Assembly: GCF_900143545.1 (NCBI RefSeq)
Contig: NZ_FREV01000001.1
Location: 1-64,000, forward strand
Reading direction: 5' to 3'
DNA: 64,000 nucleotides
Origin: Loktanella sp. Alg231-35
Lineage (GTDB): Bacteria > Pseudomonadota > Alphaproteobacteria > Rhodobacterales > Rhodobacteraceae
In this document: piece by piece, positions 29,658-58,870 of the stretch
Layout: each line of letters opens with the position of its first letter
How positions within the stretch are numbered: position 1 is the stretch's first letter
Position numbers and translations under genes: made by a program
Notes under the pieces: generated by a model
The model's input: the letters and a program-made list of their open reading frames with translations, nothing else
What the model was told of the DNA's origin: nothing
Databases searched by the model: none

Positions 29658-29951
29658 TTAGAACAACGACAACTGCCGCCGTTCTACCATGTGCATTTGC
29701 CAGGCCTTGCTCTGCGCCGCCTCATCCAGCGCCGTGACCACAAACGCCCGGATGTCAGTCTCACCATCAAGCTCCGCATCCGCCACAAAGATCGATCGAT
29801 AGCCCGTCTGCGTCACCGGTAACGGCTCATCACATCTTAGCTGGATGTGCCAGTTACCGGAGTTCAACCACTGCCACTGATACTCCACCAGGATGCTAAA
29901 CTCGGACCAATGCAGTGTGAATGCCTCATAGGCGTCATCTCTGCCCGCCAT
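29658..29951 (-). CDS. Hypothetical protein downstream of DUF3768 gene
   Basis: 97 residues, soluble, rich in Trp and acidic residues (WSEFSILVEYQWQWLNSGNW). No family recognised. Its start overlaps the stop of the DUF3768 gene by one base, so the two are co-translated. It ends at a bidirectional terminator. Confidence 0.6.
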   Translation of the reverse strand: MAGRDDAYEAFTLHWSEFSILVEYQWQWLNSGNWHIQLRCDEPLPVTQTGYRSIFVADAELDGETDIRAFVVTALDEAAQSKAWQMHMVERRQLSLF

Positions 29952-30478
29952 CAGTATTCACAGGCCAGCATAATGGTGAGGACGCGGTGGGTGAGTGCGT
30001 CATTGGCGGGGTTCTCCGATCCCTGCTTGAGCGTCAGATCATAGTAATCAAGCTTCCAGAAGACCTTCTGGCCTTCTATATCGACCGCCCCAAAGTCATG
30101 TTCACCCCAGGGATCATTGTCCTCGGAGAAGTCCTCGAATGCACGCACGGCTTTGATGGCAGCAAGCACAAAGTCAGTGCCCTCTGCCTGCATGCCGCTG
30201 GTGACAACGATACTACCGTTGCCCAGACCTTGCGTCCTGAACCGGTCATTGAGAGCCCGCACCCGGCGGTTCTGGATGGCATCAGCCGGGATCCAGTCGA
30301 GCTTGGTTGCGCCCTCACAGCTATGACAGTGCTCATCATCAAAGACGTTCTCGAGCTCCCACAACCCGCTCTCGCGGTTGAAGCAGGCCCAGGCGTCGCG
30401 TGCGACATGTTCGGATCCACAGCTCCGACAGACTGGCACGGAGTTGATCGTTTCTGGTGTGGCTTGTTTGGTTTCCAT
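29951..30478 (-). CDS. DUF3768 protein with zinc ribbon
   Basis: 175 residues from METKQATPETI (AAGGTGA eight bases upstream). An N-terminal zinc ribbon (CRSCG and CHSCEG) precedes the DUF3768 domain: IRALND-like VRALNDRFRTQG, AFEDFSEDNDPWGEHDFGA, KLDYYD and HRVLTIMLACEY. The family is common in plasmids and accessory regions of alphaproteobacteria and has no known role. It is divergent from the ATPase gene, so the palindrome at 30611 lies between both. Confidence 0.85.
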   Translation of the reverse strand: METKQATPETINSVPVCRSCGSEHVARDAWACFNRESGLWELENVFDDEHCHSCEGATKLDWIPADAIQNRRVRALNDRFRTQGLGNGSIVVTSGMQAEGTDFVLAAIKAVRAFEDFSEDNDPWGEHDFGAVDIEGQKVFWKLDYYDLTLKQGSENPANDALTHRVLTIMLACEY

Positions 30479-30610
30479 GGGTATCACCTTTCAATCGGGC
30501 GGGGCTGAGCGGGATTGCTCAGACGCGCCCGATTGCGCGGCGATGGATGGAGAAAGAACTGTACTGAGATCATGATGCCGTAGGGTCAGATCGATACAAA
30601 GCACTCACCC

Positions 30611-32059: not shown

Positions 32060-33547
32060 ATGAAACACTACTACGGATACACCCGGGTCTCGACCGTCAA
32101 GCAGGGCGATGGGGTGTCACTGGAGGCGCAACAAGACGCCATCAAGGCCTATGCTGACAAACAGAACTTGCTGATCAGTGGCTGGTTCGAAGAGAAGGAG
32201 ACGGCGGCAAAAAGCGGTCGTCCGGTGTTCAACAAACTGATCTCGTCCCTCCGACAAGGCGAAGCTGATGGTGTTGTCATCCACAAGATCGACCGGTCTG
32301 CCCGCAACTTCTCTGACTGGGCGCTGATTGGGGAACTCATTGATAGCGGGATCGATGTAAGGTTCGCGCATGAAAGCCTGGATATGCAATCGCGCGGCGG
32401 GCGTCTGACGGCGGATATACAGGCTGTCATAGCCGCTGACTATGTGCGCAATCTCCGTGAAGAATGCATCAAGGGGATCGAAGGGCGTCTGAAGCAGGGT
32501 TTGTACCCATTTAACGCACCTATTGGCTATATGGATCAAGGCGCTGGAAAGCCGAAAATTCCGGATCCAGTGCGTGCGCCTTACGTCCGGCAAGCCTTCG
32601 AGCTTTACGCATCTGGTGAGTTTAGCATTCTGGGGTTGCTGGAGGAGTTGCGTGCACGTGGCATGCGAACCCGGCGCGGCGGCCAGATCTCCAAAGGGTG
32701 TCTTGAAAACCTATTGTTCAACCCTTTCTATCACGGCGTGATCCACATCAAACGCGGTAACCGCACCTACAAAGGTATACATGAGCCTCTGATCGAGAAG
32801 GCCTTGTTCGACAGGGTCCAGATCATGAAATCCGACCGCTGCAACAAGAAGCACAATAAGCATGAGGTGATGTTCCGCCGTCTCGTGGATTGTGGATATT
32901 GCGGCTGCCGCCTCTACGGCGAAGTACAGAAAGGGCATATCTACATGCGTTGCCATACGTCAGGATGCCCAACGACCACGGTCCGGCAGGATGTCTTAGA
33001 CGCGGAAATTGAGCTTAGTTTGGCGGGGATGCAGATCCCGGACACCGACCTGCGGCGGCTCCGCAAGCAGCTTGAGAATATGTTTGCGCGACGCACACAC
33101 GCACAGGATCAGCGGGCAGTTGCACTGCAAATCCAGAACATCGACAAACGTCAGGATCGACTGACCGAAGCGCTCATTGACGGCTTGATTGACCAAAACA
33201 CTTTCCAAGAACGCAAGGTGCGGCTGACAGGTGAGCGAGAAAAGCTTGAGCTGACCATCACCGAAATGGGCGACATCACGCGAGAACGGGCGATAGCGGA
33301 GAAATTTCTCGAACTGACAAAAAGCCTTTATCTGATTTACCAAATGAGTGATCCGGGCAAGAAACGCCGACTAGCAGAAATCGTGTTCTCGAACCTTACC
33401 TTAACTGGAAAAAACCTAGTGCTCACACCGCGAAATTGGTGTGTGAAGGTCGATCAAACCCTCAATTTGATTTGTGGTGCTCCAGACCGTGACACACTTC
33501 GAACTCGAGAGGAGATTGAAGAAGTATTTCAAGTCGTTGATTTGTAA
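32060..33547 (+). CDS. Large serine recombinase
   Basis: 495 residues. The N-terminal resolvase domain has YYGYTRVSTVKQGDGVS with the catalytic Ser, plus IHKIDRSARN and the following Arg residues. The recombinase domain (about 155-260) has APIGYM and KGCLENLLFNPFYHG. A zinc ribbon has CGYCGCRLYG and CHTSGC, and a coiled-coil stretch (about 320-430) follows. It is a phage/ICE-type integrase that could have brought in the neighbouring genes. The matching att pair was not found. Confidence 0.92.
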   Translation: MKHYYGYTRVSTVKQGDGVSLEAQQDAIKAYADKQNLLISGWFEEKETAAKSGRPVFNKLISSLRQGEADGVVIHKIDRSARNFSDWALIGELIDSGIDVRFAHESLDMQSRGGRLTADIQAVIAADYVRNLREECIKGIEGRLKQGLYPFNAPIGYMDQGAGKPKIPDPVRAPYVRQAFELYASGEFSILGLLEELRARGMRTRRGGQISKGCLENLLFNPFYHGVIHIKRGNRTYKGIHEPLIEKALFDRVQIMKSDRCNKKHNKHEVMFRRLVDCGYCGCRLYGEVQKGHIYMRCHTSGCPTTTVRQDVLDAEIELSLAGMQIPDTDLRRLRKQLENMFARRTHAQDQRAVALQIQNIDKRQDRLTEALIDGLIDQNTFQERKVRLTGEREKLELTITEMGDITRERAIAEKFLELTKSLYLIYQMSDPGKKRRLAEIVFSNLTLTGKNLVLTPRNWCVKVDQTLNLICGAPDRDTLRTREEIEEVFQVVDL

Positions 33548-33999
33548 AGCACACTCCATCATATGGCTACTAGCCGGTAAGGTAAGCTAATGGCAGTAGT
33601 TTCACTCTAGAAATCCAGGTAGAAGTGCTGTTGGTGACCGTGCCATCGCCCTGAGTATATCTTGCATAGTTGAGCAGATATGGTAGCGTTGAAGTTGGAG
33701 GCGCCAGATGTAGTGTCACAGGAGCTTGACTGCCATAGGGACTTATTTTCTTGATAAGTAGTCCGTGGAGGTATAGTTTAGTCCGGTGATGTTCCTTTGG
33801 GACGTTTCAGTATCGCCGATGAGTCAGGTTCTAACTTTCAAGTTGTTCCGAACTAGTCCTTGACGGGCGACGTTGACTCAAAGGCTAGACCCCGGTTGTG
33901 TTGGACCACGCCGGGGTCTTCCTATTTTATACTAGATGTTTTTGAATGCCCGAACCATCGGGCCCGGGCATTCGCGTAGCAAACCTAGATAGCGGTTAG
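33548..33999. other. Intergenic stretch after the recombinase
   Basis: No accepted gene. A minus-strand frame without stops (about 33560-33770, ending in ISRVKLLPLAYLTG) reads somewhat protein-like but has no start signal, and may be a remnant. A hairpin at 33887-33919 is a probable terminator. Confidence 0.4.
33887..33919 (+). terminator. Probable terminator hairpin
   Basis: AGACCCCGG and CCGGGGTCT pair perfectly over 9 bp around a 15-base loop; TTCCTATTTTA follows on the plus strand. Confidence 0.5.
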
Positions 34000-34107
34000 C
34001 TACACAGTGATGTGCGAAGCGCCCACCAAAGCCCAGCCATAGTGCAGAATGATATCAGCACAGATGACCACGATAAGGTGGAACGCGAATTGAACAATGA
34101 AGCTCAT
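34000..34107 (-). CDS. Small single-span membrane protein
   Basis: 35 residues from MSFIVQFAFHLIVVICADII, nearly all of it one membrane helix followed by a short tail (HYGWALVGASHITV). The start is supported by AGGGAGAG six bases upstream on the minus strand. It belongs to no known family I recognise. Small hydrophobic proteins in such places can be toxins or regulators, without proof here. Confidence 0.5.
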   Translation of the reverse strand: MSFIVQFAFHLIVVICADIILHYGWALVGASHITV

Positions 34108-34459
34108 ATCGCTCTCCCTATGTTGGTTCCAGTATAGCCTGCCCGCACCGCCTAGGGCGGTTGGACGCGGACAAACGTGATGAAGGATATCCAGATTAAG
34201 TTCGAAACGGCAAGTCAAAACATGGAGTCATTTCGACGCTGGCTGCCACTAGCTTAGCATGCCGACTTGATTTCGACATGTGGCAAAAATCTGCGGAATA
34301 TCACCGAAAGCAATATTCTGCCTCCTAGCATTATCTGGAAATTGTGTTCTGTGCAGCAGACCGTGACAGTTCTCGAACTACGAATGAAGTAGCCCAAGCA
34401 ATTGAGATACTTCATTCTTGGTCTGTTAACATACGAACCTAGATCAGTCTTTAGGCTAA
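34108..34459. other. Intergenic, nothing recognised
   Basis: AT-richer sequence between two small minus-strand genes, with no gene, repeat or RNA recognised. Confidence 0.4.
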
Positions 34460-34918
34460 TCATTGGTATCGATGGCGATTACAACGTTGTGTCCCGCCCC
34501 AAACGGGTCGACACCCACAGCTGGCGCGAGACTCATTACTGACGTCTGACAGTACAGATTTGGTTGGAACCATCAAACGCCTGGCTCGCTCCTTCTCGAA
34601 GTCAATGACGTATTGTGGCTCTAATTTAGTCTGAACATCAATTTCCAATGTGAGGCGAGTGAAATCGCCTTCAAGTACAATTAGTAACTTCATCATCATT
34701 TGTTTGATGACTGCTTTCTCGGCTTCAAGCGCTGCAGCATCATCTTTTTGTTTGTCAAGTTGTCGATGTGCAAGTTTTTGGTATACTGAAACGACCAAAG
34801 AGACTCTTAAGTGATATTTTGAGATTTGGTTTAAGCGGGGTCGGTTTGACGGTTGGCCCCGCTTTTTATTTTTGTTTCCCGGCGGTTCAAAATCTACTTC
34901 AACTTCCAAGCTCAACAT
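34460..34918 (-). CDS. Hypothetical protein beside the HTH-Dcd-like gene
   Basis: 152 residues from MLSLEVEVDFEPPGNKNKKR, with AAGGA seven bases upstream on the minus strand. The middle (residues about 45-95) is a long amphipathic, partly coiled helix (VYQKLAHRQLDKQKDDAAALEAEKAV kept short here as residues 45-70), and the C-terminus is basic. No family recognised. It follows the HTH-Dcd-like gene on the same strand after 83 bp and could be its partner. Confidence 0.5.
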   Translation of the reverse strand: MLSLEVEVDFEPPGNKNKKRGQPSNRPRLNQISKYHLRVSLVVSVYQKLAHRQLDKQKDDAAALEAEKAVIKQMMMKLLIVLEGDFTRLTLEIDVQTKLEPQYVIDFEKERARRLMVPTKSVLSDVSNESRASCGCRPVWGGTQRCNRHRYQ

Positions 34919-35001
34919 AACTGTCCTTCCCCAAGTGTAATTAGCTGTACGCCACAAATACAGCTGTCAAGAAGGAAAGTCAATCAAATGTCAAATACGT
35001 G

Positions 35002-36219
35002 TCAATTTGGTAATTTGACTAAGTTAAGCTCACACAAAAGGTCGAAGATCGATATTTCACCATTGCCTTTTTCAATCGGCAATAGCGTCTCAGAACCATC
35101 GGCGGCCACAACTGCATCCTTGTCCAGATTGAGTCGAAGGCCCAATGCCTCACAAACTTCGCAAGCCGCCCTGTACGATAACAAGCTTGCCTCGCTCTCG
35201 CACGAAATCTTATTGATAAAATCTTTGAGCCCCGCTTTCTCCTTTGCAGATACGAAAGCGAGTAAGCGCGAGTATACAGCGTCACTTAGTGCTTGCTCAG
35301 CGTCTATTTTTCTCGGAAAAATCGTGTTTGGCTCGAACACTGAAGGTATGACCGCTCTGAAACGATTTTGTCGCTTTGAATACTCAATAGAAGCCTTCAA
35401 TCCAGGCCAAACAGTGCGATGTAGCACATCTGCAAAGTTAACTTCTCGGCGTTTTTCCACAGTGTCTTCGAAATTTGCGTCTTGCTGATCGAATTCCTGG
35501 TTGGGCACATGGGATAACCCCATAAGCTCTACACTGAGTATTCTTTGCCCAGCTAAAATCTCAAAACGCTTGGTTCCGAAGTTCAAAACCACAAACTGCA
35601 GCTGATCGTTAAAGGCGGGATCTATTTGAAAGCCGTGGATTACCTGCAGACCTTGTCTGACGTACTCAGTGGTACCCCCAACGCGGCCAACCATTTGATT
35701 CTTCAGATTTATGCGTTCCTGTGTTAGAAGAGTGATAGCTTCACCCTTTTCAAGCCAGTAACCTCGGCCTCGTGTCAACTCGAGCTGCTCTCCATCCCCC
35801 AACAATGCGCGACTACTGATAGTTAAGTCCAAAGAAGCCTGTTTCAGGTTTTCTTTCCTAAACGGATCAATGCTAATCAGATTAGACCTCACCGCATCTT
35901 CGATAGCGCAGTCAACGAGTACACCTGGCGCTATTGCAAGAGAGGCACCACCCTTTAGAGTGCCATTGGACCCCTGCCCTTCAGACGTAGAAAAATGGTC
36001 TGTAAGCCAATAATCCTTTGGCAGGCCCATTAGCCGAGATAAAGCATGGCCTACCTCGATAGAGATTTCCTGATGGTCATTAACAATATAATTAACTGTT
36101 TGCCTAGAAACGCCGATCTCATCTGCCAAGCGCTTCTGGTCAAAGCCCCGGCGTTTCATTTCTCTCCGAAGATGTTGGCCAGCGGTGAGAGGTTCGTTGG
36201 CCTGATTGTGGTCTAACAT
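35002..36219 (-). CDS. HTH (HigA-like) fused to inactive dCTP-deaminase-like domain
   Basis: 405 residues. Residues 10-75 form an XRE/HigA-type helix-turn-helix (QKRLADEIGVSRQTVNYIV). Residues about 100-240 match the dUTPase/dCTP deaminase fold: NLKQASLDLTIS, EKGEAITLLTQERINL, GTTEYVRQGLQV, IDPAFNDQLQFVVLNFG and AGQRILSVEL. Against E. coli Dcd the Ser-x3-Arg box GRSSLAR reads GTTEYVR (Arg kept) and the general-base Glu of VLEFYN is Val in FVVLN, so deamination is unlikely while nucleotide binding may remain. A further ~165 residues are unassigned. It could sense a pyrimidine nucleotide and regulate transcription, or serve in phage defence; both are inference. Confidence 0.8.
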   Translation of the reverse strand: MLDHNQANEPLTAGQHLRREMKRRGFDQKRLADEIGVSRQTVNYIVNDHQEISIEVGHALSRLMGLPKDYWLTDHFSTSEGQGSNGTLKGGASLAIAPGVLVDCAIEDAVRSNLISIDPFRKENLKQASLDLTISSRALLGDGEQLELTRGRGYWLEKGEAITLLTQERINLKNQMVGRVGGTTEYVRQGLQVIHGFQIDPAFNDQLQFVVLNFGTKRFEILAGQRILSVELMGLSHVPNQEFDQQDANFEDTVEKRREVNFADVLHRTVWPGLKASIEYSKRQNRFRAVIPSVFEPNTIFPRKIDAEQALSDAVYSRLLAFVSAKEKAGLKDFINKISCESEASLLSYRAACEVCEALGLRLNLDKDAVVAADGSETLLPIEKGNGEISIFDLLCELNLVKLPN

Positions 36220-36518
36220 CGCCTATTATCCCGCCCCAAGTTCATGCCAGACTAGACGAGACTCGCCAATCAGTCTACTTGTATTTGACAAATGCTTGAC
36301 ACAAAGTTCAATGTCGCCCGAACTGGGTCTAGTGTCATAGCATTGTCAATCATGTTTCGATCAACTCGTGCAGTAGATTTGGCTCGTATTAATGCGCCAA
36401 AGAGTGTGCCGCACTCAGCTGTCCGCAAGAAACAAGCTGGAATTCCATCCCGCGCACCGAAAAAGAGCCTAGATTGAGCCTAAGATCGCAAGGCGAATAG
36501 CTCAAGTATCTGATTTAG
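36220..36518. other. Intergenic stretch before the island
   Basis: Promoter region of the minus-strand HTH-Dcd-like gene and about 200 bp with no recognised gene up to the left attachment site. Confidence 0.4.
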
Positions 36519-36567
36519 TGGTGAGCCGTGATGGGTTCGAACCATCGACCTACTGATTAAAAGTCAG
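36519..36567 (-). repeat. attL: 49-bp copy of the tRNA-Lys 3' part
   Basis: Identical to 58795-58843. Read on the minus strand it contains the 3' half of the anticodon arm, the T arm, the acceptor 3' strand and CCA, but the 5' half of the tRNA is missing, so it is an attachment site and not a gene. Confidence 0.95.
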
Positions 36568-36677: not shown

Positions 36678-36728
36678 TCAATTTCTGTCTAAAGATGTAT
36701 CAGATTGGATCATGTAATCTCGCTTAAT

Positions 36729-58794: not shown

Positions 58795-58843
58795 TGGTGA
58801 GCCGTGATGGGTTCGAACCATCGACCTACTGATTAAAAGTCAG
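58795..58843 (-). repeat. attR: 49-bp repeat inside tRNA-Lys
   Basis: Identical to 36519-36567. It is the 3' part of the intact tRNA-Lys, so integration at this site leaves a working tRNA. Confidence 0.95.
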
Positions 58844-58870
58844 TTGCTCTACCAACTGAGCTAACGGCCC
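58795..58870 (-). tRNA. tRNA-Lys (anticodon UUU)
   Basis: On the minus strand the 76 bases form a full cloverleaf: acceptor GGGCCGT with ACGGCTC, D arm with AGCTCAGTTGGTAGAGC, anticodon arm CTGACTTTTAATCAG with anticodon TTT, T arm with GGTTCGAACC, and an encoded CCA. It is the integration target of the island to its left. Confidence 0.97.

Follow-up and report, generated by a model that had tools for sequence, protein, structure and literature searches.

What does a helix-turn-helix protein do with the fold of dCTP deaminase when the catalytic Glu of that fold has been lost? The question is raised by one locus of Loktanella sp. Alg231-35, located in the window considered here, that is, the whole analysed stretch of 64,000 nt. 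The span 34460–36219 holds two minus-strand genes, the HTH-DCD fusion gene, 405 aa with an ATG start (35002–36219, minus strand; its product is called P0001 below), and a separate ORF of 152 codons (34460–34918). The fusion of an HTH with a dCTP-deaminase-like domain, proposed in an earlier sequence-only reading of this DNA, is borne out, as Pfam HTH_3 and DCD both score over their cut-offs. The XRE/HigA-like HTH domain comprises residues 13–71 (36007–36183, minus strand), with the HTH_3 match at residues 17–71 (E 2.6e-10) and block means of pLDDT of 88–95 across residues 11–70 of the predicted model. The dCTP-deaminase/dUTPase-fold domain follows at residues 101–238 (35506–35919, minus strand), and a C-terminal region of no known family at residues 246–405 (35005–35484, minus strand). 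Structure prediction had been suggested as a check, and in the predicted model, built on a nine-row alignment, both the HTH and the DCD domain are folded confidently. Searched by itself, the C-terminal region matches nothing in Pfam up to E 1, and its models are of low confidence (mean pLDDT 50 when modelled alone); the structure-match (VIA) rows align with residues 99–246 only and leave the remainder uninformed.

By profile and fold match P0001 qualifies for the DCD fold superfamily PF22769, and an HTH with a further domain is the layout of XRE-type one-component regulators. The HTH had been called HigA-like, and as a label of type this is fair, but the NCBIfam HigA model TIGR02607 gives 32.7 bits against a cut-off of 47.7, and on this score HigA antitoxin is rejected as the identity of P0001. 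Proteins annotated as HigA occur among the listed plasmid matches of P0001 at E 1. Judged from these profiles and from the alignments below, P0001 is a member of the DCD fold superfamily and not a dCTP deaminase, with an HTH that is of the XRE type and, by score, not HigA.

Both in the canonical phage Dcd alignment and in an alignment of 35 DCD-fold proteins, Val210 (codon 35590–35592, minus strand) stands at the place of Glu138, the general base of E. coli Dcd. The sequence-only reading was thus right in seeing Val for the catalytic Glu. Thr183-Thr184-x3-Arg188 is aligned to Arg110-Ser111-x3-Arg115, Gln198 stands at Arg126, Asp200 at Asp128 and Phe203 at Trp131. P0001 has nothing in the His121 column, and most of the active-site positions compared with Dcd are changed. 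From the RSS...R motif together with Glu138, Arg188 alone is kept, with Thr183-Thr184 and Val210 elsewhere. The Ser-x3-Arg box had been said to keep its Arg, which holds for Arg188 of P0001, but the Ser is Thr184, and in the other three HTH-DCD proteins the Arg115 place is occupied by Ser, Thr and Thr. Glu138 is kept in nine of ten canonical Dcd proteins (the one miss, row L077, has Gln) versus 0/4 HTH-DCD and 0/21 other DCD-like proteins; the remaining residues kept among the four HTH-DCD proteins are Arg110 in none, Ser111 and Arg115 in one each, and Asp128 in two, with L003 and L048 lacking this Asp. The equivalog model of dCTP deaminase, TIGR02274, gives 48.8 bits for P0001 and does not reach its cut-off of 92.8. 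An active dCTP deaminase is rejected on the lost Glu138 and the changed motif residues, and the alignments make it highly probable that P0001 is not one.

A DCD domain that is still enzymatic could be that of a dUTPase with a DNA-binding head and a metabolic role. Trimeric dUTPases are characterised by a PRS motif, a catalytic Asp and the C-terminal motif 5. Such an activity does not conflict with Val at the Glu138 place, as the solved proteins 8y1w and 9ln0 of the same fold have Met there in alignments; their entry titles say dUTPase, while the molecule name says dCTP deaminase, and the lost Glu consequently speaks against deamination rather than against all chemistry of the fold. Asp200 and Arg188 are kept, and PF00692 (dUTPase) remains barely below its cut-off, at 21.8 versus 22 bits. 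Against this, the Arg and Ser of the motif are both Thr in P0001 (RS to TT), no motif 5 was seen by eye at the C-terminus, and the relatives L003 and L048 are without the Asp as well, all of which makes a dUTPase a most unlikely reading. The host genome contains a two-domain Dcd of its own as well as a gene in which dUTPase motifs are seen by eye, so P0001 is probably dispensable for dNTP metabolism. With the active-site residues so altered, ligand binding by the DCD domain may also be gone.

HTH-DCD fusions are rare, with matches in four genomes, all of one family. At E 1e-5 P0001 has matches in 4 of 394 family genomes and 3 of 56 genus genomes, and at E 1e-6 profile matches are found in 8 of 385 class, 13 of 390 order and 29 of 398 phylum genomes, these three draws overlapping and the own genome being included in all counts. 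Only P0001, L003 (G269), L048 (G1137; the same gene as L049, from a Yoonia metagenome assembly) and L087 (G1354) give matches spanning both HTH and DCD. In L048 and L087 both domains are over the Pfam cut-off, and in L003 the DCD is over and the HTH under it (18.9 of 23 bits). Pairwise identity along HTH, linker and DCD is 23% to L003 and 21% to L048, and a close form of P0001 is known from one genome alone. Pattern scans of genome contigs and viral contigs found no homologues, plasmids contain none at E 1e-5, and the DNA of 33560–36500 has no match in plasmids. At E 1, 115 plasmid records match, none of them covering >80% of the protein; from the best 40 of these 115, four were inspected, of which H17, H19 and H34 are DCD-like loci, and H14 (residues 1–119 of P0001) was judged a chance match because it falls in the frame of another gene. 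No description of an HTH-DCD fusion was found among the listed literature matches, for which article bodies were mostly not covered.

The alignment and tree are based on 35 chosen proteins (4 HTH-DCD, 21 other DCD-like and 10 canonical), leaving out L073, whose start is unsure, the DCD-like gene in L089, L080 and L083 of the host itself, the duplicate loci L084, L085, L088, L090 and L049, and DCD matches not read singly (e.g., L019, L021–L023, L025, L026, L028–L036, L038, L041, L043–L045, and also L092, L094, L095). The ten canonical Dcd domains form one group (99/95) that excludes all 25 others. P0001 sits on a long branch, and because of the long branches its placement is unsure. The tree needs two changes for the four fusions, and a single origin is recovered in 8% of bootstrap trees; monophyly of the four is not rejected by the AU test (p 0.334).

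A non-deaminating DCD fold joined to a DNA-binding domain points to a regulator, and candidate operators are present on both sides of the gene. Before the HTH-DCD gene, an operator-like site at 36285–36349 has TTGACA at 36285 and 36296 on the plus strand, and TTGACA at 36344 and ATGACA at 36333 on the minus strand, in 11-bp steps; the repeat finder reports it as an inverted repeat of 36285–36302 with 36332–36349, which by itself is not rare (48 of 200 shuffles are as good). Before the 152-codon gene, a minus-strand operator-like array at 34965–35005 has TTGAC[AT] at 34965, 34978, 34989 and 35000 (steps of 13, 11 and 11), overlaps the HTH-DCD stop codon and has a plus-strand TTGAC[AT] beside it at 35015; the 152-codon ORF begins approximately 46 bp beyond the half-site nearest to it. 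The pattern TTGACA-N5-TTGACA, which was read off the upstream repeat and hence chosen after the first site had been seen, has exactly two matches in the 3,914,133-base assembly, 36285–36301 and 34989–35005, and its backward control has none. In 3000 shuffles of the 1620-bp region, one had at least one match and none had two.

The same two places hold the two densest clusters of TTGAC[AT] in the 64-kb window, five downstream and three upstream of the gene within 75 bp. As the largest cluster in 40 shuffled windows was of two in 33, of three in 7 and never of more, the downstream cluster is exceptional taken alone and the upstream one is not. With no motif preset, the commonest hexamer in both flanks is TGTCAA, a modest result for each flank (32 and 8 of 200 shuffles, respectively). 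TTGACA is the general –35 consensus, which means that the clusters may in part be promoter; the same property would also suit a repressor that covers promoters. The location of two sites flanking the regulator supports an autoregulator that controls the adjacent 152-codon gene, and the distribution of the motif makes it likely that P0001 is a DNA-binding autoregulator acting at both predicted TTGACA sites.

The 152-codon gene (34460–34918, minus strand) is a small, adjacent orphan on the strand of the fusion gene, with an ATG start and a good ribosome site (AAGGA upstream), and among the frames its own gives the best codon score, yet a weak one. It had been suggested as a partner of the regulator, and this is now supported by the sites, as the only two TTGACA-N5-TTGACA sites of the assembly precede the regulator and this gene; on that basis it is the probable regulated partner of P0001. 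A longer 165-codon frame used as the query had no match over cut-off in Pfam, NCBIfam, PADLOC or PHROGs, and none at all in NCBIfam and PHROGs; weak matches to Cas_Csy2 (Pfam, E 0.085) and PDC-M43B (PADLOC, E 0.0054, 13.8 bits) were taken for chance. Homologues were absent from 55 other genus genomes (165-codon query) and from plasmids (152-aa query).

These properties bear on the possibility of a toxin-antitoxin pair, in which P0001 would be the antitoxin and regulator, the 152-aa protein the toxin, and the DCD domain merely a dimer or trimer core. The HigA-like HTH, the operator-like sites before both genes, the small adjacent gene on the same strand and its being an orphan at a variable site would all be expected of such a pair, but the 152-aa protein matches no toxin family in Pfam, NCBIfam, PADLOC or PHROGs, in particular none naming HigB (a diverged toxin might escape such searches), the HigA cut-off is missed, the gene order is unlike that of higBA, and no neighbour is common to the relatives, so that we regard the pair as improbable.

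On the opposite strand, inside the 152-codon ORF, very stable hairpins ending in a U-run are observed at 34790–34875 of the window (plus strand; z –3.6, with 0 of 200 shuffles as stable), preceded by a promoter-like TTGTCG-N16-TATACT at 34760–34787. They leave room for a short antisense RNA, possibly of 75–80 nt as predicted from these elements, or for some doubt about the ORF itself. Promoter-like and terminator-like sites are not above chance in the region (three versus 4.2 expected, and two versus 2.8, respectively).

A small membrane protein at 34000 had been offered as another partner. The likely form of this ORF is a hydrophobic one of 35 aa with a good ribosome site (34003–34107 of the window, minus strand), and the 72-codon frame at this place has a higher codon score on the opposite strand. 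Searches of 55 other genomes of the genus and of plasmids gave no homologue of the 35-aa ORF, and no TTGAC[AT] cluster of the 64-kb window is near it; as a partner it is rejected.

No partner gene common to L003, L048 and L087 was seen in the stretches examined, mostly by eye. These stretches were approximately 1.5 kb on each side of the three genes, 6 kb on each side for L049 and 14 kb in total for G269, with ORFs read by eye and four neighbours checked by Pfam, the longer stretch L070 being left out. The neighbours of the three relatives are ordinary (RNase HII, aminotransferase, isopropylmalate dehydrogenase, FAD enzyme), and their flanks contain no repeats beyond those of shuffles.

The regulator reading of the sequence-only analysis is accordingly supported in its general form, and the locus appears to encode a real regulator of rare architecture, in which a domain of enzyme origin, probably without catalysis, serves for sensing or oligomerisation. 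The gene product would act as a one-component regulator of transcription, most probably a repressor, whose N-terminal XRE-type HTH binds TTGACA half-sites and whose central DCD/dUTPase fold, past deamination, serves as oligomerisation core and sensor. P0001 would bind both clusters and repress its own gene and the 152-codon gene, and a ligand in the DCD pocket, most likely a pyrimidine nucleotide, would either release the DNA or induce its binding. We give this reading, a repressor with a TTGACA-binding HTH and a dead DCD fold that oligomerises and senses, a probability of about one half. A nucleotide is favoured as the ligand because of the fold, and this part, although plausible, is put forward tentatively.

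DCD-fold enzymes, Dcd included, are homotrimers, and a homotrimer would suit three half-sites on one helix face. The three HTHs of a trimer might then be placed on the three in-phase direct repeats at 34978, 34989 and 35000, 11 bp apart; as a model, this arrangement is doubtful. The most specific form of the proposal, to which we assign a low probability, is that a dead-deaminase trimer reads the pyrimidine dNTP pool with its three HTHs on phased TTGACA sites and switches on a small orphan effector once phage or replication stress upsets that pool. P0001 would then belong, as one of the branches, to a broader radiation of dead DCD-fold sensors, the majority of those sampled being membrane-anchored.

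The main rival to a nucleotide ligand is a protein ligand, on the model of Stl, the SaPI repressor that phage dUTPases release. The DCD domain would then be an oligomerising decoy or docking surface that senses a protein rather than a nucleotide, e.g., a phage or host protein of nucleotide metabolism, whose binding frees the DNA. The loss of most active-site residues in the four HTH-DCD proteins is in line with this, and signalling of dUTPases to a repressor independently of catalysis is described in two reports (PMC6695447, PMC12524310). No partner gene common to the relatives is present in the stretches seen, however, and protein contact is suggested here by analogy, which makes a protein ligand rather unlikely, and the nucleotide-responsive repressor remains the preferred reading.

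As to the genomic place, the sequence-only reading put the gene just outside a tRNA island beside a serine recombinase, and both are present. Repeat comparison gives two copies of a 49-bp att repeat on the plus strand, the left one at 36519–36567 and the right one at 58795–58843, within the 3' part of tRNA-Lys (58795–58870); the island between 36519 and the tRNA is 22.3 kb long, a tyrosine recombinase is found at 36705, the serine recombinase at 32060–33547, and the HTH-DCD gene 300 bp outside the island. The lowest GC of the window is observed here (0.456 and 0.473 in two overlapping steps). For this side of tRNA-Lys, blastn (E 1e-10) matches nothing of the window in the relatives G1162 and G1127 except the tRNA itself and its immediate edge, which indicates that the site is variable.

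P0001 could also be a decaying gene or transposon cargo with no present function, with the outward TTGACA arrays as the ends of an element. Such an origin would fit the low GC of the gene (0.471), the variable site, the occurrence of a close form in one genome and the inverted placement of the two arrays; it is opposed by the intact 405-codon frame, whose codon score is best of six in its own frame, by the confident folding of both domains and by the list of ORFs, in which no transposase-like one falls between the arrays. We consider it very unlikely.

A role in anti-phage defence had been inferred from this location, and it is left unsupported. The PADLOC matches of P0001 are confined to its HTH, none of ten neighbouring proteins matches PADLOC at E 0.001 (nine of them in the island, being some of its ORFs, and one at 29951–30487), and no partner is common to the relatives. 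Four island proteins tested are of the TPP-enzyme, xylose-isomerase-like, GFO/IDH/MocA and sugar-binding types. Given the sugar-catabolism-type proteins and the 0/10 PADLOC result, the region does not look like a defence island, and this interpretation is rejected; an anti-phage role of P0001 seems improbable. A phage origin is also rejected, since no phage record matches P0001 at E 0.01 and no viral contig does. The relative L003 matched five phage records by its DCD part only, and the best 50 of 1556 BFVD rows are mostly named Dcd or dUTPase, with some viral Pol polyproteins and the rest uncharacterised or unnamed. As for the content of the island (36519–58843), its genes are of the sugar-catabolism type and by eye perhaps serve myo-inositol catabolism.

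Beyond the fusions, DCD-fold proteins without the catalytic Glu constitute a wide family (0/21 keep it; L002, L004, L047, L011, L015, L018, L051–L053, L072, etc.), and they are annotated, e.g., as "deoxycytidine triphosphate deaminase" or "hypothetical protein." In 16 of the 21 a 19-residue stretch with a mean hydropathy of at least 1.87 follows the DCD fold and is read as a membrane anchor at the C-terminus, and by these sequence features the Glu-less anchored proteins look like membrane-bound sensors. Directly before the membrane DCD-like gene we observe, in eight distinct loci, a related gene of approximately 160 aa with the motif RLKHxxxHxAKYxG, seen by eye (L002:952–1431, L004:983–1444, L047:1963–2436, L051:3422–3901, L053:3243–3728, L015:869–1417, L018:863–1414 and L089:1950–2429); three such proteins tested have no Pfam match. 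Two membrane DCD-like genes are located on alphaproteobacterial plasmids (L052:3953–8432, NZ_CP133481.1; L051:1–4648, NZ_CP007047.1) with an XRE regulator, an ImmA/IrrE peptidase, a C1 peptidase, an unknown gene and a uracil-DNA glycosylase as neighbours, possibly a defence-type module. On conjugative rhizobial plasmids (L005:5061–8639, NZ_CP049209.1; L006:3619–5681, NZ_CP140967.1), other DCD-like genes are immediate neighbours of an adenylosuccinate synthetase gene or stand one gene away from it. In L042:994–2094 a Glu-less DCD-like domain is followed by a C-terminal part that is MazG-like by eye, Pfam finding DCD only, and in L096:637–1767 a HigA-type HTH is joined to a part with a peptidase-like HEACH motif (by eye).

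The new element of this analysis is the pair of TTGACA-N5-TTGACA sites that links the regulator to the 152-codon gene; through these two operator-like sites the regulator can be tested directly, and the question of the ligand follows. If the reading is true, the few bacterial transcription switches that sense nucleotides gain one built on an enzyme fold, and the case draws attention to DCD-like proteins that bear deaminase names yet lack the catalytic Glu.

Among known systems, P0001 differs from dCTP deaminases and Dcd:dut proteins (E. coli Dcd, M. tuberculosis Dcd:dut, PF22769) by its fused HTH, and from canonical Dcd also by the absence of Glu138, Arg110, Ser111, the His121 column and Arg126 and by its position outside the canonical group of the tree. 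With HigA/XRE antitoxins it shares the HigA type of the HTH; unlike them, it has additional DCD and C-terminal domains and no HigB-like neighbour that we could find, and it scores below the HigA cut-off. Defensive dCTP deaminases share the DCD fold and act by catalysis, whereas P0001 has the fold without the general base. Defence through the nucleotide pool is the theme of PMC12265719. NrdR (PMC9110341) is described as a nucleotide-sensing repressor made of a Zn-ribbon and an ATP-cone, which binds NrdR boxes, responds to ATP and dATP, targets ribonucleotide reductase genes and often controls its own gene. The likeness is a working analogy, as in both proteins a DNA-binding domain would be set on a nucleotide domain shared with enzymes, P0001 having an HTH and DCD instead of the Zn-ribbon and ATP-cone. 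Stl of SaPIbov1 (PMC6695447) is an HTH repressor of a mobile element that binds the phage dUTPase; in both cases an HTH repressor would be tied to the dUTPase fold, which in P0001 is part of the regulator itself.
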